NCBI GenBank assembly: GCA_022446885.1
Contig: JAKVBU010000011.1
Span: 1-64,000, forward strand
Reading direction: 5' to 3'
Source of the DNA: Phycisphaerales bacterium
Lineage (GTDB): Bacteria > Planctomycetota > Phycisphaerae > Phycisphaerales > SM1A02
DNA length: 64,000 bases
Part shown: positions 32,597 to 41,419 of the stretch, in pieces
Layout of the letters: every line of letters begins with the position of its first letter
Position numbering within the stretch: the first letter of the stretch is position 1
Made by a program: the position numbers and the translations under genes
Notes under the pieces: model-generated
The model's database searches: none
Seen by the model: the letters and a program-made list of their open reading frames with translations, nothing else
What the model was told of the DNA's origin: nothing

Positions 32597-34066
32597 TCAG
32601 GCCTCACCGAGCCGCTCGATGGTGTCGGTACTTGATCTGCCCGGGCGATGGGCCAGTACCTTGAGATCAATACCCAGTTGCCGAACCAGATCGTGCTCTG
32701 CGATGTCCTCCGGGGCGTAGTCGCCGCCCTTCACATACACATCAGGACGCACGGCCTCGATCAGGGCATGTGCCGTTGGCTCTTCAAAGGGGGACAGCAG
32801 GCCGACGCACTGAAGTTCAGCCAGAATCTCCAGTCGTTCCTGAAGGCTGAACACCGGCCTCCCTGCACCCTTCATCGCCGTGACCTGTTCGTCGGTGTTG
32901 ACGCCGACCACCAGCAGATCCCCCTGCGCAGCCGCCTCCCGCAGGTAAGCGACATGTCCGGCGTGAATCACATCGAAACAACCATTGGTAAGCACGATTC
33001 GGCGGCCTGCAGCCCGCGCTCCCTCCAGTTCGACGCACAACTCCTCACGGTCGCGCACCTTGCCCTCTGGTCGATGCACACTCCGCAACACTTCAAGTCG
33101 AACCTGGGCCAGAGGAATGGCCTGTGCTCCGAAAACTTCCACCTCGAGCCCCGCCGCGGCATTGGCCAGTTGCACACACTGGGCCCAATTCAATCCATGA
33201 GCCCGCCCAGCGGCAAGTGCGGCCAGCACCATGTCACCGGCACCAGTCACGTCGTACACGTCACGGGGAATGGTAGGCGTCGGACATGGATCGCAGCCTT
33301 GTTCCAGAAGCAACGCCCCGTGGCGATCGAGCGTCAACACAACAGCGTGGGCGCCCGTCACTTCCTGCAGACGCCGCCCACGAGTCTCCGGGCAGGCATC
33401 CGAACCCAGCGATGGGGTAGCACGCTCGGCCTCGGTTCGGTTGGGTGTGATCGCCGTGCACCCCTTGTATCGGCTGTAGTCTTCCAGCGGCGCGGGATCG
33501 ACAAGCACCTCGACACCTGCGGCCTTGGCCACCTCGACCACGCCTGCGATGAGTGACTCATCGCACACGCCCTTGCCGTAGTCCTCAAGGCACACGACAT
33601 CGACCTCGGCCACCGCCAGGCGCAGGGCATCAAGCAGCCTCGCTCGGATCGAAGGCGACAGGGGCGCCGTTGACTCGTGATCCAATCTGAACATCTTCTG
33701 GGGGTGACGATGTTGCGCCAGCCCCACCAGACTGCGCTTGCAGGTGGTTGGACGATCCGCATCGATAATGAGGCCGTCGGTGCAGATGCCCTCCGCATTC
33801 AGTGCCTCGACCAGCGCCCTGCCGGCGCTGTCATCACCACGCACGCCCACACAGGTGACCGAGCCGCCCAGACCGGCGAGGCACGTTGCGACGTTTGAAG
33901 CGCCACCGGGCGTTCGGCTGGTCCGCTCAACCTGCAAGACCGGCACGGGGGCATCGGGGCTCAGGCGTTGGGCGTTGCCGTACACCTGCTCATCGAGCAT
34001 GAAGTCTCCGATGACCAGTGCCTTGAACGTCTCGAATCGGGCCAGCGCATGGAGTAGATCTGTCAT
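32597..34066 (-). CDS. hldE: Bifunctional heptose 7-phosphate kinase / heptose 1-phosphate adenylyltransferase
   Basis: A 489-residue cytoplasmic enzyme for ADP-heptose synthesis, used for lipopolysaccharide core. The N-terminal ribokinase-like domain shows ALVIGDFMLDEQVYG and SRTPGGASNVA, and the active-site DVTGAGD segment near residue 275. The C-terminal nucleotidyltransferase domain starts at VLTNGCFDVIHAGHVAYL and includes VYVKGGDY and GRSSTDTI. The ATG at 34066 overlaps the lpxK stop by 4 bp and matches the usual length. Confidence 0.94.
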   Translation of the reverse strand: MTDLLHALARFETFKALVIGDFMLDEQVYGNAQRLSPDAPVPVLQVERTSRTPGGASNVATCLAGLGGSVTCVGVRGDDSAGRALVEALNAEGICTDGLIIDADRPTTCKRSLVGLAQHRHPQKMFRLDHESTAPLSPSIRARLLDALRLAVAEVDVVCLEDYGKGVCDESLIAGVVEVAKAAGVEVLVDPAPLEDYSRYKGCTAITPNRTEAERATPSLGSDACPETRGRRLQEVTGAHAVVLTLDRHGALLLEQGCDPCPTPTIPRDVYDVTGAGDMVLAALAAGRAHGLNWAQCVQLANAAAGLEVEVFGAQAIPLAQVRLEVLRSVHRPEGKVRDREELCVELEGARAAGRRIVLTNGCFDVIHAGHVAYLREAAAQGDLLVVGVNTDEQVTAMKGAGRPVFSLQERLEILAELQCVGLLSPFEEPTAHALIEAVRPDVYVKGGDYAPEDIAEHDLVRQLGIDLKVLAHRPGRSSTDTIERLGEA

Positions 34067-35073
34067 GGCGAAACATCCAGACGTTCGAGGCAGGATCGCA
34101 GTTGCGACTCGCCCGTGAGAAACCGCAGGCCCAACCTGGGTACGAGCACCGGAACGTCCAGCGCTCGATCCTGCAGCAGCGGCGCCATCGTAGCCATGTC
34201 CTTGGCGGTCACAACCAGCCCGTCGGCGTCGCGAGCAGCATCGATCAGGTGAGCCAGTTCCTGAGCCGTCACGGGCTGGTGATCCTTGGCCTTGCAATCG
34301 GCGCTCACCGTGGCCCCGTGCATCTCCAGCATGTTGTGCACACCTTCAGGCCGAGCCAGCCCAAGCCGGGTAACCACCTGCAGGCCCTTGAGCGCACCTA
34401 CCTCAATTCGCTCACACTGGCCTTGCACATGGCGATCAAGCCCGTCCCACACATGCACGCACTCGGCCACGGGTGCCTTGCCATGAAGCGCTTCGATTCG
34501 ACTACGCAGGGTGGGCGCGGCATGATCGGCATGCGTCACCACAACAACATCTGCGCGGCGGAGATTGCCTGCAGGTTCACGAAGCCGCCCCACCGGTAAC
34601 AACCGGCCCGTGTCGGGCGGATGTCTGGCATCCACCAGCACAATGTCGAGATCACGCTTCACGAATCTGTGTTGAAAGCCGTCGTCGAGCACGACGCAGT
34701 CAATGGCCACGCCTGCTTCAAGGGCGGCGCGAATCTGTCGCACGCGATCGGCGCCCACTAGAACCGGCACTTCATCCAGCAGCGCCCGATGTTCTTCAGC
34801 CTCGTCGCTCACGCCCTCCTTGGCTCCGTACCCACGTATGGCAATCGCCGGGCGTCGCCCCGCTTCGATCAGGCGGCTCGTCACCCACCGCACCATGGGC
34901 GACTTCCCTGTTCCACCAACCGAAATGTTCCCGATTGAAACCACCGGCACCCCGACATCATGCACGTGCCGGCCTCGATCAAAGCCACGATTGCGCATTG
35001 CAACGGCCTGCTTCATCACCCACTCGGGAACGAAGCCAAGCACCGGGCTGAAGAAGTTGACGCTCGGGCTCAC
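34063..35073 (-). CDS. lpxK: Tetraacyldisaccharide 4'-kinase (lipid A)
   Basis: Inner-membrane-associated kinase that phosphorylates the lipid A disaccharide; 336 residues. The Walker A loop is GNISVGGTGKSP. DDGFQHRFVKRDLDIVLVDA is the family landmark, followed by PVGRLREPAGNLRRADVVVVT. It overlaps maf and hldE by 4 bp each. Its presence implies lipid A synthesis in this organism. Confidence 0.94.
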   Translation of the reverse strand: MSPSVNFFSPVLGFVPEWVMKQAVAMRNRGFDRGRHVHDVGVPVVSIGNISVGGTGKSPMVRWVTSRLIEAGRRPAIAIRGYGAKEGVSDEAEEHRALLDEVPVLVGADRVRQIRAALEAGVAIDCVVLDDGFQHRFVKRDLDIVLVDARHPPDTGRLLPVGRLREPAGNLRRADVVVVTHADHAAPTLRSRIEALHGKAPVAECVHVWDGLDRHVQGQCERIEVGALKGLQVVTRLGLARPEGVHNMLEMHGATVSADCKAKDHQPVTAQELAHLIDAARDADGLVVTAKDMATMAPLLQDRALDVPVLVPRLGLRFLTGESQLRSCLERLDVSP

Positions 35074-35657
35074 CCGTCCACCTCCTCGAGAAGTTCGTCG
35101 AGCAACTCCAGCGAGAGGCCCATGACCGAGGAAGCCTCTCCATCACATTGCACCGGCCAGCCCGCCGCGATGCGATCAGACAGGTTGTAGGCGCCAGCCT
35201 TACCACGCCACTCCTCGCTGTCCAGATAGCGATCGATGGAGTCATTTGTCAGATCGCCAATCTGCACCTCTTCGCATCGAGCCCCCATGTGTCTTTCGCC
35301 GCCAACTCGCATCAGGCACATGCCTGTCCACACCTCGTGGGTGCCACGCCGCATGCGATTGAGCATGGCTCGCGCATCTTCTCGATCAGCAGGTTGTCCA
35401 AACACCTTGCCGTCCACACTGCAAACGGTATCCGCCGCAAGGAGGAGTTCGCCCAGTTCGCTCGCTTCGTTCTCCACGACCGATCTGGCCTTGAGCCAGG
35501 CCATCGCCATGGTCCAGCCGCGAGGGTCGTGCCCGCTGGCGTCGAGCATTCCATCGTCGATCGATGCCGGGCGAATACACACATCCCAGCCAGCCTCTGC
35601 CAGCAGTTGCGCTCGCCGAGGGCTCCCGCTTGCAAGCACGATCCGTGGGCCGCTCAT
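35070..35657 (-). CDS. maf: Maf-like nucleotide pyrophosphatase
   Basis: A 195-residue house-cleaning NTP pyrophosphatase. The N-terminal loop IVLASGSPRRAQLL, the LLAADTVCSVDGKVFGQP block and EWRGKAGAYN are the three conserved Maf regions in order. Its position inside an envelope operon is by linkage rather than obvious function. It overlaps both neighbours by 4 bp. Confidence 0.93.
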   Translation of the reverse strand: MSGPRIVLASGSPRRAQLLAEAGWDVCIRPASIDDGMLDASGHDPRGWTMAMAWLKARSVVENEASELGELLLAADTVCSVDGKVFGQPADREDARAMLNRMRRGTHEVWTGMCLMRVGGERHMGARCEEVQIGDLTNDSIDRYLDSEEWRGKAGAYNLSDRIAAGWPVQCDGEASSVMGLSLELLDELLEEVDG

Positions 35658-36730
35658 ATGCCCATACCCAGTGCATCTAGCGCTGCCTCGAGCACCGACT
35701 CAACCTCGATGCGTCGCATCAGGGAGTCGCCCAGTGTGTTGTCTCGATAATCGGGCCGTTCACCCGGCGCCCACTGGGCCTGAATGACCTTGTCCATGCC
35801 ACGCCATGGGCCAACGATCGACGAATCGGTCGGGCCGTACAGCCCCAGACAACGGCCACCGAGCCCCATCGCCATGTGCAGGGGCGCCGAGTCACTGGCA
35901 ATCGTGAGCGAGGCGTCTTCGATGCATGCCATCAACTCGCCGATTTGCGTCTGTCCGGCCAGATCGACAACGCGCTGGGACCAGCCCTGCAGCCCCTGCG
36001 CCACAGCTCCGCAGGCTGCTCGTTCAGAGGGGGATCCCACCAGCAGCAACTTCAGCGAGGCATCGGCCTCCAACAACTGACGCCCCAGCAGAGACCAACG
36101 CCCCGCTGGCCATGCCTTTGATGGCCAACGTGTCGCCGGGGCCAACACGACATACCCACCGGCCAAATCAAGCCCCGCCCTACGTTGCCGCCATGCGCCT
36201 CGGGCTGCATCGCTCACATGAAGGGTCTCGTCGCCATCAGCCTCGCCGCCCGCAGCAGCAACCAGTGCCAGCATGCGGTCGACCTCATGCACACCTGAGG
36301 GAACATCCACCCGCTGATTCGCTCCGAGCCACCCCAGCTCTCTTGCGGCCCGATCGGCAATTCGGCGAGGCGCCCCGGAGCACAGTGACATGAGGCCACT
36401 GCGGGCAAGGCCCTGACAGTCGATGACCAGATCAAATCGGGCCTGATGAATGGAGCGAAAGAACTCGAACGCCTCTCCCCATGCCTGAGGCCTTCTGAGG
36501 AGCCCACGCAGCCGACTTCGAGGAAAGGCGATGATGCCATCCAGATCCGGGTGGGCCTCGATGGCCTGGGCAAACGAATCCTGCACCAGCCAGTGGATGG
36601 CGGCATCCGGGGCGGCCCGCCGGAGGGCGGACAGAATCGGAACGGTCCGACAGACATCACCCAACGCGCTCGGGCGAATGATCAGAATCCGGCCTGCTGC
36701 TATTCTTCCGCCCATTCTTCGATCGCCCAT
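35654..36730 (-). CDS. Family 9 glycosyltransferase (heptosyltransferase-like)
   Basis: GT-B enzyme of the ADP-heptose:LPS heptosyltransferase family: RILIIRPSALGDVCRTVPIL at the start, DLVIDCQGLARSGL in the N-terminal half, then VVLAPATRWPSKAWPAGRW and ASDSAPLHMAMGLGGRCLGLYGPTD fragments of the donor site. I place the start at 36730; ATGs at 36715, 36787 and 36817 are alternatives, the last overlapping the divergent kinase start. With hldE in the operon, a heptose donor is likely. Confidence 0.88.
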   Translation of the reverse strand: MGDRRMGGRIAAGRILIIRPSALGDVCRTVPILSALRRAAPDAAIHWLVQDSFAQAIEAHPDLDGIIAFPRSRLRGLLRRPQAWGEAFEFFRSIHQARFDLVIDCQGLARSGLMSLCSGAPRRIADRAARELGWLGANQRVDVPSGVHEVDRMLALVAAAGGEADGDETLHVSDAARGAWRQRRAGLDLAGGYVVLAPATRWPSKAWPAGRWSLLGRQLLEADASLKLLLVGSPSERAACGAVAQGLQGWSQRVVDLAGQTQIGELMACIEDASLTIASDSAPLHMAMGLGGRCLGLYGPTDSSIVGPWRGMDKVIQAQWAPGERPDYRDNTLGDSLMRRIEVESVLEAALDALGMGI

Positions 36731-36815
36731 CCGGGCCAAACTGGCCTCGGGCGTTTCCGATGATAGTCTCGAAGGGGATGCCACCATGTGTGTGGCATGT
36801 AGATGACCGCGATCC

Positions 36816-38195
36816 ATGGCAAACGATCAACCGAATCAAGAGAACGCTCCCGGGCTCGCAGATAGCGACGCACCGATGCCTTCTGCCGCCAATGGCCCCA
36901 GTTCGCCTCAGCGCACCGGCCAGCGCAAGCCTCAGGATGAAGCCCAGGGGGAGCCCCCGGCGGCAAAGACCGGCGGCGCCAGCACCGGCGGGTTCGACAC
37001 CATGCTGGGCCAACTGGTGGTGCAGCAGGGGCTTGTCACGGCTGATGAGGTGCAGCAGTGTCGGTCTCATCTGAAGTCAAAGGGCCAGGATCAAACCGGA
37101 ACGCTCGGCGACTTGCTGCTGGCACACGAGTTCATCACTCGCCGGCAGATGGCTCGGCTGCGACGCGATTTCGAAGCCCGCAAATCTACGCAGCGCATTC
37201 CCGGGTACCGCATCAAGCGCAAGCTCGGCGCTGGCGCCATGGCGACTGTTTTTCTGGCAGAGCAGATCAGCCTGGATCGTCTCGTCGCCATCAAGGTGCT
37301 CCCGCGGAAATTCTCGGAAGACCGCGACTTCATCGCTCGCTTCTACAAAGAGGGGCGGGCCGCAGCCAGCCTGAACCACCCCAACATCGTGCAGGCCATC
37401 GACGTGGGCCATGCCCAAGACCACCACTACTTCGTGATGGAGTTCGTAGAGGGCGAGACGGTCTACGAGAAGATCTCTCGCGACAAGCGCATCAAAGAGA
37501 CTGAGGCCATCGACATTCTGCGCCAGAGTGCAAGGGCGCTGCTGCACGCACACGACAAGGGCTTCATTCACCGTGATATCAAGCCCAAGAACCTCATGCT
37601 CACCAAGGGTGGGCAGGTGAAATTGGCTGATCTGGGCTTGGCCCGCAGCGTGGACGATCACGAAACCGCCAAGGCTGAGGCCGGCCGGGCATACGGCACG
37701 CCCTACTACATCTCACCTGAGCAGATCCGCGGCTCGATGGACATTGGCCCACAGGCCGACATCTACGGTCTGGGCGCTACGGCCTATCACATGGTCACGG
37801 GGCAGGTGCCCTTCAACGGCAAGAACCCCAGCGAGGTCATGCACCGCCATCTCAAGGCACCCCTGGAACCCCCGGATCACCTCAACCCAACACTCAGCGC
37901 CGAATTCTCTCAGGTGCTCGAGATGATGCTCGCCAAGGACTGCAACCACCGCTATCGCACCGCGGCTGATCTCCTGGAAGACTTGGAACTTCTGCGGCGA
38001 GGTGAAGCACCGCACTTTGCCAGACCAAAACTGAATCTGCAGGACATGGCTGTCAGCGTGGGCGGCGACGATGCCGCCAACGTGCCCGCGGCGCCCAAGC
38101 GGGCCAAGCGTGGCATTGATCCGGCGCTGGCCTGGGGCAGCATCGTGCTCAACTGCATTTTGTTGATTGTGATCGTGCTGATGGCGCTCCGCTGA
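36816..38195 (+). CDS. Membrane-anchored Ser/Thr protein kinase with MshEN-like N-terminus
   Basis: A 459-residue Hanks-type kinase. After a disordered Pro/Gln-rich head (1-58), residues about 61-125 hold two similar units (LGQLVVQQGLVTADEV and LGDLLLAHEFITRRQM), which resemble the paired units of MshEN/GspE N-terminal domains. The kinase domain spans about 130-395 with GAGAMATVF, K160 in AIKVL, H252-R-D254-IKPKN and D272-L-G in place of DFG. A C-terminal helix (about 435-457) anchors it, with no extracellular sensor, so the kinase faces the cytoplasm. Confidence 0.9.
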   Translation: MANDQPNQENAPGLADSDAPMPSAANGPSSPQRTGQRKPQDEAQGEPPAAKTGGASTGGFDTMLGQLVVQQGLVTADEVQQCRSHLKSKGQDQTGTLGDLLLAHEFITRRQMARLRRDFEARKSTQRIPGYRIKRKLGAGAMATVFLAEQISLDRLVAIKVLPRKFSEDRDFIARFYKEGRAAASLNHPNIVQAIDVGHAQDHHYFVMEFVEGETVYEKISRDKRIKETEAIDILRQSARALLHAHDKGFIHRDIKPKNLMLTKGGQVKLADLGLARSVDDHETAKAEAGRAYGTPYYISPEQIRGSMDIGPQADIYGLGATAYHMVTGQVPFNGKNPSEVMHRHLKAPLEPPDHLNPTLSAEFSQVLEMMLAKDCNHRYRTAADLLEDLELLRRGEAPHFARPKLNLQDMAVSVGGDDAANVPAAPKRAKRGIDPALAWGSIVLNCILLIVIVLMALR

Positions 38196-38229: not shown

Positions 38230-38690
38230 TACTTGAATTGAACGACCATCTCCACCTCAACCGTGGCCCCGAGCGGCAGCGCCACTGAGCCCACCGCAGC
38301 CCTGGCGTGCTGTCCGCGTTCTCCAAAGACTGCCACCAGCACATCACTGGCCCCGTTGGCAACGATCGGCTGGCCGGTAAACGATGGATCGCTGGCCACA
38401 AACACGCCCACCCGAATGATGTCCGTGATTCGATCAAGATCACCCAAAGCCGCCTTCAGGGCAGACAGGGCATTGATGGCGCACACCCGCGCAGCCTCTT
38501 GGGCCTGCTCGGGGGTCTGGGCCGTTGGGACAGGCCCACAAGCCGACAATTCGCCCCGAACCTGTGGAATCTGTCCAGCCACGAAGGCCAAATCGCCCGC
38601 CAGACGCACCGGAACATAATTGGCAGCCGCCCCTGGGGGCTCAGGAAGGTCGATTCCGAGCTCTAGAAGACGAGATTCGACGATGGACAT
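38229..38690 (-). CDS. RidA/YjgF-family protein
   Basis: A 153-residue member of the Rid superfamily, which deaminates reactive enamine/imine intermediates. The conserved pattern includes LAFVAGQIP, then ALSALKAALGDLDRITDIIRVGVFVAS and RAAVGSVALPLGATVEVEMV, where the Arg and Glu match the usual active-site positions. It belongs to the longer branch with the LPEPPGAAANYVP head. The leader to the right is the long gap before the prepilin gene. Confidence 0.9.
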   Translation of the reverse strand: MSIVESRLLELGIDLPEPPGAAANYVPVRLAGDLAFVAGQIPQVRGELSACGPVPTAQTPEQAQEAARVCAINALSALKAALGDLDRITDIIRVGVFVASDPSFTGQPIVANGASDVLVAVFGERGQHARAAVGSVALPLGATVEVEMVVQFK

Positions 38691-39208: not shown

Positions 39209-40243
39209 ATGAAGAGTACGAATCATCGTCGCGGCTTCACCATCGTCGAACTGATGGTGGTCGTGGCCATTATCGCGCTGCTGATCAGCCTGCTGGTGCC
39301 CGCGCTGGCATCGTCATTCGCCAGCGCCAAGGCAACGCAGGATCAGGCACAACTGCGTGGTGTCATGGCCGGCACGCTGATGTCCTCTCAGGACTTCAAC
39401 GACAAGTTCGTCAGCCCTGACCAGATCTGCCGCAGGCCTTACACCGCCCAGAGCACCCCCGGCTACATGTGGGGTAAGGGCGACCGCGTCATCAACTGGA
39501 ACAGCACTGAGAGCCTGGTCTCCGCAATGATCATGCGTGAGTACCTTGAGCCCAGCGCCTTCGTCAGCCCCGTTGACTCCAACCCCTACGTTGGTGCCAA
39601 GGGCCAGATCGAAGAGTCCAGTGGTATTGCCATTCCCTACAACTTCGATGCTTGGGATCCCGTAACCGGCACATTCAACGCCACCGGCAGCCCTGAAGGG
39701 TTCTGGGACCTGTCGATCTACTGCGATCTCGCTCCCAACAGCTCCGAAGATGTCGATCACAACTCCTATGCCAACTCCACGCTCTGCGGCCACCGCCTCA
39801 AGAAGTGGAACGCCAACGAAGGCCACGACCGGATCACCTGGTCCACCCGCGGCACCAAGATGGGCGCTGGCATCGGCACCTCTGATTACGACAACTGCCC
39901 CTCGCTGACCATGATCGGTGAGGAGAACCACTGGAAGGGTCACATGGCCCATGGCGATGGTTCCGTCTCGGTCGAGACGTCGTTCATCCCTGTCCTCCAC
40001 TACAGCCCAGCTCGTGGCCTGCAGGTGGTTGACAACGTGTTCGACGCTGAGTTCGCTGACGAGTACTTCATGCCCAGCTCGGGTACGGCTCAGAATTGCG
40101 GCGCTGCCGACAACTTCCTGACCTTCTCGAACAACGGCTATGCCAGTGGCAACGCCTCCCAGCTCTTCCCCGGCGGAAATGTGCTGGATTCTTACCTCCA
40201 GAGCCGCTGCACCTGGGACATCGACTGCGATGACTCCTGGTGA
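39209..40243 (+). CDS. Type IV prepilin-like (G-2) secreted protein
   Basis: A 344-residue protein with a class III signal: a short basic head, then cleavage after Gly in RRGFTIVELMVVVAIIALL, giving a mature N-terminal Phe with Glu at position five. The large C-terminal domain is polar and has several Cys and Trp; it resembles the big pseudopilin-like G-2 proteins frequent in Planctomycetes. The ribosome site AGGAGA lies 12 bp before the ATG. No pilus or type II secretion machinery is in the window. Confidence 0.85.
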   Translation: MKSTNHRRGFTIVELMVVVAIIALLISLLVPALASSFASAKATQDQAQLRGVMAGTLMSSQDFNDKFVSPDQICRRPYTAQSTPGYMWGKGDRVINWNSTESLVSAMIMREYLEPSAFVSPVDSNPYVGAKGQIEESSGIAIPYNFDAWDPVTGTFNATGSPEGFWDLSIYCDLAPNSSEDVDHNSYANSTLCGHRLKKWNANEGHDRITWSTRGTKMGAGIGTSDYDNCPSLTMIGEENHWKGHMAHGDGSVSVETSFIPVLHYSPARGLQVVDNVFDAEFADEYFMPSSGTAQNCGAADNFLTFSNNGYASGNASQLFPGGNVLDSYLQSRCTWDIDCDDSW

Positions 40244-40264
40244 TCTGCACTGACTGACGACTTG

Positions 40265-40293
40265 CGGCCCCGCCTCAATTCGAGGCGGGGCCG
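40265..40293 (+). terminator. Strong hairpin after the first prepilin gene
   Basis: CGGCCCCGCCTC, loop AATTC, then GAGGCGGGGCCG: a perfect 12-bp GC-rich stem located 21 bp after the stop. It is followed by TCGTCGTT rather than a T-run, so termination may be partial or need Rho; an mRNA 3' stabiliser is the alternative. Confidence 0.7.
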
Positions 40294-40402
40294 TCGTCGT
40301 TCAGACTGGGCCATTTTCGCACCTGTAGGCTCAATTCGTGGCAGGCTGATGGAGCCGGTGGCATCTGCTGGGCGTACAGCCATAATGCGAGCACAAACGA
40401 CC

Positions 40403-40420
40403 CGGTCTGGGCCCAGACCG
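40403..40420. promoter_or_regulatory. Perfect 18-bp palindrome before the second prepilin gene
   Basis: CGGTCTGGGCCCAGACCG reads the same on both strands and ends 18 bp before the ATG at 40439, just ahead of the GGAG ribosome site. It shares CGGTC/GACCG arms with the inverted repeat of the first prepilin leader but with different spacing. Operator or translation-blocking hairpin. Confidence 0.5.
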
Positions 40421-40438
40421 AACCAGATGGAGCTGATG

Positions 40439-41419
40439 ATGCACACGCCCCGACATTCCACAACTGCCCGCCACGGTGTCACCTTGGTCGAGCTACTCGT
40501 TGTCATCACGATCATCGGCATCCTCATGGCCGTGCTCTTCACGGCCATGGCCCCGGCCCAGCGGGCTGCGCGTGAGTTGCAGGAGAAGGAGAACCTCCGG
40601 CAGATCCACGGTGGGTTCAAAGCCTACGCGGCCTCCCACAAGAATCAGAACCCAACCCCGGGGCTCGTACGACGCGGCATGCGCGACTTCGATGGTGACG
40701 GCATCGGCGACCGCTTTGTCGACGGCAGCGGCCCGGAAGACGCGTCACAAAACGATCACGGTGCGATGCTCTCGCTGTGCATCATGAACAACCTGATCGA
40801 ACCCAATCAACTCATCTCTCCCAATGAGCCCAGCGGCCACGTGTACGCGCTCAAGGACTTCAACTACAACATCTACGGCAAGGTTGACGACGAAGGGCGC
40901 CCCCACCGCTGGGATCCCTCCTTCAGCAATCACCTGCTCGGAGAAGGCGACGCCCTCAACCCCGGTTGCAACAATTCCTACGCCATCATGCCGCTGGCGG
41001 GTGAGCGTCGCCGCGACAACTGGGATCGCCAGGGGTCCTCGACGTTTCCTCTGCTGGGCACGCGCGGCCCGATGGACGGGGACACGGTGCACATCTATCT
41101 GCCAGAGGGCGGCGGCAACCCAGCCTCGATCACCGGTCAACTGTTGGCGACGCCCGGCGCATGGCGGGGCATTCAGGTGTTTTCCGATGGGCACACCGAG
41201 ATCTCTGACGGTTTCTACCCGGAACAGCTGGCCTACCGAAACTCGGCCGGAATCGACGTACCCGACAACATCTTTGACGCCGAGCGGCCAGCATCAGGCT
41301 CGTGGGCTGGCTCCCTCCTCAAACTCGGCCCGGATGCCTTACTGACCCACGTCGATTCGATGGAGGCGATGTCGGGCGTCAATCCGCTGGATGCTGAATT
41401 CGAACCCCTACACGACTGA
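40439..41419 (+). CDS. Second type IV prepilin-like (G-2) protein
   Basis: A 326-residue paralogue-type protein with the prepilin signal ARHGVTLVELLVVITIIGIL (Gly at -1, Glu at +5). The body includes DFDGDGIGDRF, a PYPG-free polar region with PNEPSGHVYALKDFNYNI, and AIMPLAGERRRDNW. Both prepilin-like proteins carry a similar DNVFDAE/DNIFDAE segment and a GxxSxE-like part near it, which argues for common descent. I use the ATG at 40439, placed six bases after GGAG; 40436 and 40427 are alternatives. Confidence 0.82.
   Translation: MHTPRHSTTARHGVTLVELLVVITIIGILMAVLFTAMAPAQRAARELQEKENLRQIHGGFKAYAASHKNQNPTPGLVRRGMRDFDGDGIGDRFVDGSGPEDASQNDHGAMLSLCIMNNLIEPNQLISPNEPSGHVYALKDFNYNIYGKVDDEGRPHRWDPSFSNHLLGEGDALNPGCNNSYAIMPLAGERRRDNWDRQGSSTFPLLGTRGPMDGDTVHIYLPEGGGNPASITGQLLATPGAWRGIQVFSDGHTEISDGFYPEQLAYRNSAGIDVPDNIFDAERPASGSWAGSLLKLGPDALLTHVDSMEAMSGVNPLDAEFEPLHD

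Follow-up and report, generated by a model that had tools for sequence, protein, structure and literature searches.

A Ser/Thr kinase gene of a Phycisphaerales bacterium raises the question of whether cyclic di-GMP (c-di-GMP) acts as an input to Ser/Thr phosphorylation. The gene lies in the window, the 64,000-nucleotide stretch of DNA that was analyzed. Ahead of the kinase domain its product carries two similar units that a preliminary description, made from the sequence alone, likened to the MshEN fold, which binds c-di-GMP in some secretion ATPases. That description proposed a c-di-GMP input to the kinase, to be checked by fold prediction, an HMM search and inspection of the Arg and Leu ligand positions, and to be given up if every ligand residue proved to be missing. 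The two units are real, as is evident from a profile match that spans both of them, though the 12-residue strings quoted for them are only parts of the full units (residues 63-86 and 96-119). The gene and its features are as follows.

36816..38195, plus strand: whole gene, an ORF of 459 aa with an ATG start, for a tail-anchored Ser/Thr kinase with an N-terminal MshEN_N-like module
36816..36986, plus strand: leader, residues 1-57, probably disordered (pLDDT below 50 for residues 1-5 and 8-56, AF2)
36987..37184, plus strand: MshEN_N-like four-helix module, residues 58-123 (profile, NF053729 and fold evidence)
37002..37073, plus strand: unit 1, residues 63-86, MLGQLVVQQGLVTADEVQQCRSHL (from the reading of ligand positions)
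37101..37172, plus strand: unit 2, residues 96-119, TLGDLLLAHEFITRRQMARLRRDF (from the reading of ligand positions; contains T108, Q111 and R114)
37206..37967, plus strand: Hanks-type Ser/Thr kinase domain, residues 131-384 (Pfam Pkinase, E 6.9e-55)
37629..37637, plus strand: DLG at the DFG position, residues 272-274 (sequence reading)
38121..38189, plus strand: C-terminal membrane helix, the tail anchor, residues 436-458 (AF2 helix; hydrophobic segment in orthologs)

The Pkinase domain holds the full catalytic set of a Hanks-type Ser/Thr kinase: K160, E179, HRD (252-254), N259, DLG (272-274) and PE (301-302). All 11 catalytic positions compared among 149 orthologs (K160, E179, H252, R253, D254, K256, N259, D272, G274, P301 and E302) are 100% conserved. 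The nearest kinases in the PDB are mycobacterial PknB (PDB 1mru, E 8.6e-54) and PknA. PknB-type enzymes share the kinase domain, but the window protein gives no PASTA match in the Pfam search, scores 309.4 bits against the PknB/Stk1 PASTA kinase profile NF033483 (cut-off 450), ends in a bare tail anchor, and belongs with orthologs that carry DLG or DMG. The replacement of DFG by DLG had been singled out earlier; it was correctly read, yet it is normal for this family, in which DLG accounts for 44% and DMG for 56% of the 149 orthologs and DFG never occurs, and it was dismissed as a special feature. Among 13 other kinases of the same genome, 11 have DFG and one has DWG (one was not read). The corresponding residue in 57 kinase-domain matches from module kinases of other classes is F in 23, L in 20, M in 6 and Y in 1, with 7 not read.

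The membrane anchor is equally constant. A C-terminal hydrophobic segment is found in 148 of the 149 orthologs and is followed by 0-10 residues in 145 of these; L235, which lacks it, extends only 35 residues beyond position 395. The C-terminal anchor was correctly recognized in the preliminary description, and the module should thus be cytoplasmic. The protein appears from its sequence to be an active kinase, which would be held at the cytoplasmic membrane by its tail.

The kinase is nearly ubiquitous among close relatives. Orthologs, counted by eye as matches of at least 328 bits to the whole protein, occur in 95 of 101 genomes, a sample made up of the organism's own genome and relatives from the same genus, family and order. 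Two of the other six gave no match at the threshold in this search (G012, G047), one holds a fragment at a contig edge (G026), and three have weaker kinase matches only (G016, G041, G084); five of the six are less than 90% complete. Front ends were read in 70 of the 95: those from two species of one genus (L085 and L086, from G024 and G057) lack the module, and a few others are divergent or masked. In-frame stop codons were reported within the matches of three orthologs (G071, G083, G093). The organism's other kinases align with the window protein mainly over the kinase part, from residue 117 onward. The set of 149 is what remains of 157 ortholog sequences after removal of 8 with identical ends; 70 came from the 101-genome search, 7 from other families of the class, and 72 from named records. 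Close orthologs in named records are mostly titled Phycisphaerales or Phycisphaerae, Planctomycetota, though some of the 72 bear other titles (Singulisphaera, Kuenenia, an Actinomycetota bin). For work on the module itself, 7 of the 70 loci were left out, namely L008 (the window's own locus), L032 (masked in part), and L081, L084, L085, L086 and L088 (divergent or without the module), and a window row was added to give an alignment of 64 rows (A1).

The module is homologous to the MshEN_N/GSPII-N fold. NCBIfam profile NF053729, for the MshE-related c-di-GMP motif, matches residues 64-114 with E 2.8e-6 and 26.9-27 bits when the module is searched alone, and the whole protein with E 1.7e-4 and 21.3 bits; neither reaches the curated cut-off of 38 bits. 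The match runs from profile position 2 to 48 of 53 and so covers both units, and at E ≤ 0.01 the profile matches 59 of the 64 orthologous modules. The full-length AF2 model places four helices in the module (58-70, 76-88, 97-103 and 109-123), with mean pLDDT values of 86-96 for the ten-residue blocks from residue 61 to 120, and a model built from the 64 module sequences also has four helices (pLDDT 82.7). The predicted model forms two helical hairpins that together make a four-helix unit, as in the MshEN_N/GSPII-N fold.

Searches of known structures lead to the same place. The GSPII-A domain of Thermus thermophilus PilF (PDB 9g1w) ranks first in the PDB by Foldseek (probability 0.85, TM 0.57, rmsd 2.5 Å, E 0.49), and VIA gave Z 4.9 over 67 residues with rmsd 5.5; neither the Foldseek E-value nor the VIA Z-score is significant alone. 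Two further structural neighbors, 8aa9 and 6h4d, were judged unrelated, their Z values of 3.4 and 2.6 being common for helical models. With the profile of the 64 modules, the top PDB match is again PilF (2.3e-5, a value summed across several weak stretches, of which the best has E 0.46), with PilB (7.6e-4), PilF GSPII-A (0.016) and MshE (0.053) below it. The scores alone are weak; what counts is that sequence profile and fold search point to one protein, PilF. The fold prediction and profile searches proposed at the outset yielded four helices, PilF in first place and an NF053729 match under its cut-off.

An alternative, in which two helical hairpins of separate origin have come to resemble MshEN by convergence, draws on several other matches. 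The C-terminus of Pfam fumarase C is found in 43 of the 64 members at E ≤ 1 (best E 2.4e-4), the N-terminus of Pfam nitrile hydratase beta in 28 of 64 at the same threshold (best 0.005), and nitrile hydratase alpha reaches 2.9e-5 overall in the PDB profile search. The Pfam matches were judged to be short helical look-alikes, and the stretches that align with nitrile hydratase fall largely in the second half of the module profile, unlike the NF053729 match with its coverage of both units. A profile-profile comparison also speaks against convergence. Against 32 kinase-free MshEN-type matches, which were found by our own phylum profile within loci chosen by NF053729 and so carry a mild selection bias, the module profile gave 97.8% with a score of 61.5. 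The maximum over 100 column shuffles was 4.7% (15.7) and the reversed profile gave 6.8% (17.3); an earlier set of 30 shuffles peaked at 8.5% (17.2), higher than that of 100. The match lies so far above the shuffled controls that the resemblance to MshEN is not due to chance. Modules with a near-complete motif also precede related kinases (see below), and convergence is very improbable. The earlier claim of an MshEN-like fold joined to a kinase therefore holds on the strength of NF053729, the searches led by PilF and the profile comparison.

Pfam PF05157 is not among the window-protein matches listed up to E 10, and this was considered as an argument against MshEN. It was rejected because what PF05157 recognizes in this genome is the C-terminal MshEN subdomain, absent from the kinase: six of its seven matches closely follow an NF053729 match and fall on the other subdomain, and the seventh (C23) has no NF053729 partner. 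The PF05157-region alignment, which covers that other subdomain, was accordingly left out of the reading of ligand positions. One protein of the same genome (L007 / L095, C24; about 189 aa) combines the MshEN motif with the C-terminal subdomain; its unit 1 keeps RLG and Q, and it is too short to include an ATPase or a kinase.

The ligand pocket tells a different story from the fold. The MshE motif consists of two copies of RLGxx(L/V/I)(L/V/I)xxG(L/V/I)(L/V/I)xxxxLxxxLxxQ separated by a 5-residue spacer (PMC5013675); in the window protein the spacer between the units is 9 residues. Six positions were scored in each unit under a lenient scheme (position 1 R/K/L, 2 L, 3 G, 17 L/V/I, 21 L/I/V and 24 Q), and 5 of the 12 are kept: L64, G65, V79, L97 and G98. 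Position 1 is occupied by M63 in unit 1 and T96 in unit 2, so neither unit has the Arg, or the Lys or Leu allowed in its place. Both Gln at position 24 are gone (L86 and F119), as are the Leu at positions 17 and 21 of both units (V79 and R83; M112 and R116), and position 10 of unit 2 is Glu. Leu and Gly at positions 2 and 3 are retained in both units. Not every ligand residue has disappeared, but inspection of the Arg and Leu positions was favorable only in part: the position-2 Leu are kept, the Arg are absent from both units, and both position-21 Leu are now Arg.

This erosion is a property of the family. In 145 orthologs (4 of the 149 have no letters at the ligand positions) R or K is found at position 1 in 1% for unit 1 and 8% for unit 2. 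Gln at position 24 occurs in 17% and 0% for the two units, versus 88% and 75% in the 32 kinase-free matches, and Leu at position 21 in 28% and 1%, versus 94% and 75%. Position 21 of unit 2 is instead K or R in 73% of the 149 orthologs. The commonest ligand score among the 145 is 5 (49 of 145), with a range of 2-8. Scores are higher for modules from the phylum's other classes (90 of 91, one again having no letters at these positions): 10 and 11 are commonest, with 17 modules each, and the range is 2-12. However, 27 of these 90 score 6 or less, which weighs against the history that we favor.

Published mutants offer some guide to what these losses may mean. In MshE, changes of conserved hydrophobic residues cost more than tenfold in affinity, and G11L and G40I abolish stabilization by ligand, while changes of Arg9, Asp12 or Gln32 cost at most about fivefold (PMC5013675). 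XpsE, in which c-di-GMP binding is lost, carries G11V, I19R, L29R, R38G, G40L, L54H, L58C and Q61V relative to MshE (PMC5013675). Of these changes the window module has L29R, and Arg also stands where MshE has L58; unlike XpsE, which lost both glycines, the module keeps G65 and G98, the position-3 residues that correspond to MshE G11 and G40, a counterpoint to the case for loss. In PilF, the GSPII-B domain has Lys and Leu instead of Arg and binds c-di-GMP with an affinity of 6 nM (PMC11731258). Given this, and the mild effects of the Arg9, Asp12 and Gln32 changes in MshE, affinity is not readable from the sequence.

Conceivably, c-di-GMP is still bound, through hydrophobic stacking that needs no Arg, in the manner of PilF GSPII-B, and the module so switches the kinase. 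A hydrophobic residue opens unit 1 (position 1) in 89% of the 145 orthologs, in keeping with the extended motif (R/K/L)LG (PMC11731258), and the five retained positions would contribute to such a site. The ligand itself is probably present in the cell, since the genome encodes three predicted GGDEF domains and four MshEN-motif matches over the cut-off. Against this stand the replacement of both guanine-stacking Leu at position 21 by Arg, the loss of both Gln, the subthreshold NF053729 score, and the scarcity of Gly at position 3 of unit 2, found in only 6% of the 145 orthologs, where G40I in MshE abolishes stabilization by ligand. Retention of c-di-GMP binding appears unlikely, and binding has likely been lost. 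The c-di-GMP input originally proposed for this kinase is not supported by a module without either Arg, either Gln or either position-21 Leu, with a 9-residue spacer and a score under the profile cut-off.

The descent of the module is illuminated by six Planctomycetota kinases of a group labeled f54 (L124, L126, L128-L131). Like the window protein, they have module, kinase and membrane anchor in that order, the anchor being seen in five of the six (the sixth ORF is truncated where its locus ends). In contrast to the 5 of 12 ligand positions kept in the window protein, their modules keep 10-12, a near-intact c-di-GMP motif. A kinase tree of 116 rows included 25 of the 149 orthologs, which form one clade with support 100. 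The nearest clade is that of the six f54 kinases, which adjoins the orthologs within a 32-row polytomy (SH-aLRT 80) that also contains L285. The link in the tree is weak. It gains further support from the common tail anchor and from a signature in unit 2, T108-Q111-R114, which is present in 144 of the 149 orthologs and 6 of 6 f54 modules but in only 20 of 91 phylum modules, the six included. Elsewhere in the tree, kinases with and without modules are intermixed (at least 12 state changes), which implies either frequent gain and loss or modules that were missed.

The same signature bears on whether the remodeled pocket has acquired another ligand, for example another nucleotide, or a phospho-ligand for which R114 and the basic residue 116 would provide the contacts. 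R114 is found in 97%, Q111 in 100%, and K or R at 116 in 73% of the 149 orthologs, which is more conservation than a dead pocket needs. Yet T108, Q111 and R114 are shared by all six sister modules, in which the c-di-GMP motif is intact or nearly so; they are probably older than the remodeling and may be structural or kinase-facing. A new small ligand is accordingly an idea to which we give little weight.

The account that we favor, with moderate confidence, is that of a tail-anchored kinase whose ancestral c-di-GMP module has been remodeled and now provides a face for docking, dimerization or autoregulation. The module of Planctomycetota kinases was probably a regulatory input for c-di-GMP, and the Phycisphaerae lineage would have inherited kinase, module and anchor as a single unit. 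Remodeling of the pocket in Phycisphaerae would then have cost it the two Arg, the two Gln and, in helix 4, the stacking Leu, with a basic residue mostly standing in for the last, while the fold and T108, Q111 and R114 of unit 2 would have been retained. With its pocket so altered, the module is most likely unresponsive to c-di-GMP. Probably it responds to a different signal or works as a docking element, and it may present its docking, dimerization or autoregulatory face beside the kinase.

Modules of this kind are widespread in the phylum. The module profile matches 202 of 294 phylum genomes at E ≤ 1e-3, and the richest genome has at least 19 matches (19 candidates were scored). Of 68 ORFs from other classes, hand-picked near the top of the phylum match list, 56 have a kinase domain downstream in frame and 12 do not, some of the latter being short frames with tandem modules. 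A profile trimmed of its kinase-proximal residues retains all 90 module ORFs (22 from the class and the 68 from others) at 20 bits or more. When 10 module kinases chosen for high ligand or top profile scores were compared with NF053729, 3 passed the cut-off (L130 at 39.1, L133 at 44.5, and L134, which has tandem modules, at 64.0 bits), and the remaining 7 scored 25.3 to 36.5 bits.

Several loci have arrangements of their own. In L141, L149, L153, L172 and L184, all from other classes, tandem modules of the MshEN type lead into a stretch that, read by eye, contains two CxxC pairs and is probably a zinc ribbon; L152 has tandem modules and a CxxC stretch like theirs and runs on into the start of a kinase. 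L163 (536 aa) has modules and a C-terminal hydrophobic segment and no kinase match. At L278 (G174, contig 117) three module-bearing kinase ORFs lie at one locus.

The surroundings of the gene offer little guide to function. It is flanked by opposite-strand ORFs, with no evident operon partner. On the minus strand, divergent from the kinase, positions 32597-36817 hold what we take to be HldE-like, LpxK-like, Maf-like and heptosyltransferase-like genes. Among 100 loci of at least 9 kb, the neighboring ORF at 34066 (presumably LpxK-like) lies near the ortholog in 26, that at 35073 (presumably Maf-like) in 24, that at 35657 (presumably glycosyltransferase-like) in 17, and that at 38232 (presumably RidA-like) in 32. 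With such partial conservation, in 17-32 of 100 loci, the neighborhood was set aside as a clue. An all-against-all clustering of neighbors seemed rich in antisense frames and was left unused. Farther along the window, two adjacent prepilin-like proteins (39209-40243 and 40262-41419) have hydrophobic N-termini of the GFTIVELMVVVAIIALLISLLVPAL kind.

The window module shares with the MshEN domain of Vibrio cholerae MshE the two 24-residue helical units, the four-helix bundle, and the Leu and Gly of positions 2 and 3 with the hydrophobic core. It differs in the ligand residues and spacer described above, in lacking the MshEN_C subdomain, and in preceding a kinase rather than a secretion ATPase. 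PilF GSPII-A, its best fold match in the PDB, has one fair and one degenerate motif and does not bind c-di-GMP (PMC11731258); unlike the window module, it lies within an ATPase that has two further GSPII domains, both of which bind c-di-GMP.

The fusion as such had already been mentioned in print: Wang et al. (2016; PMC5013675) name the combination of MshEN with a Ser/Thr protein kinase in one sentence. The domain combination is the same as that of the window protein. This single sentence of bioinformatic mention is all that was found on c-di-GMP control of Ser/Thr kinases through MshEN in the open-license PMC literature, as far as its text was available, and the same literature yielded no experimentally studied MshEN Ser/Thr kinase. 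In a study of Planctomycetota Ser/Thr kinases that lists accessory Pfam domains, the available main text contains no c-di-GMP term (PMC11032199).

The recurrence of the module before Ser/Thr kinases in Planctomycetota invites a broader proposal, which we advance tentatively: MshEN-type cyclic-dinucleotide modules, single or in tandem, may be a standard input to many Ser/Thr kinases throughout the phylum, a wiring so far undescribed. The Phycisphaerae ortholog would then be a nearly universal, tail-anchored core kinase, with a pocket adapted to some new ligand or to a partner protein. If true, such phylum-wide wiring would directly connect second-messenger signaling with Ser/Thr phosphorylation. 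The f54 clade, with its near-intact motif, and the window clade, with its eroded pocket, have similar kinases and the same kind of anchor and so form a natural experimental pair, the comparison of which makes the effect of the module on the kinase testable.
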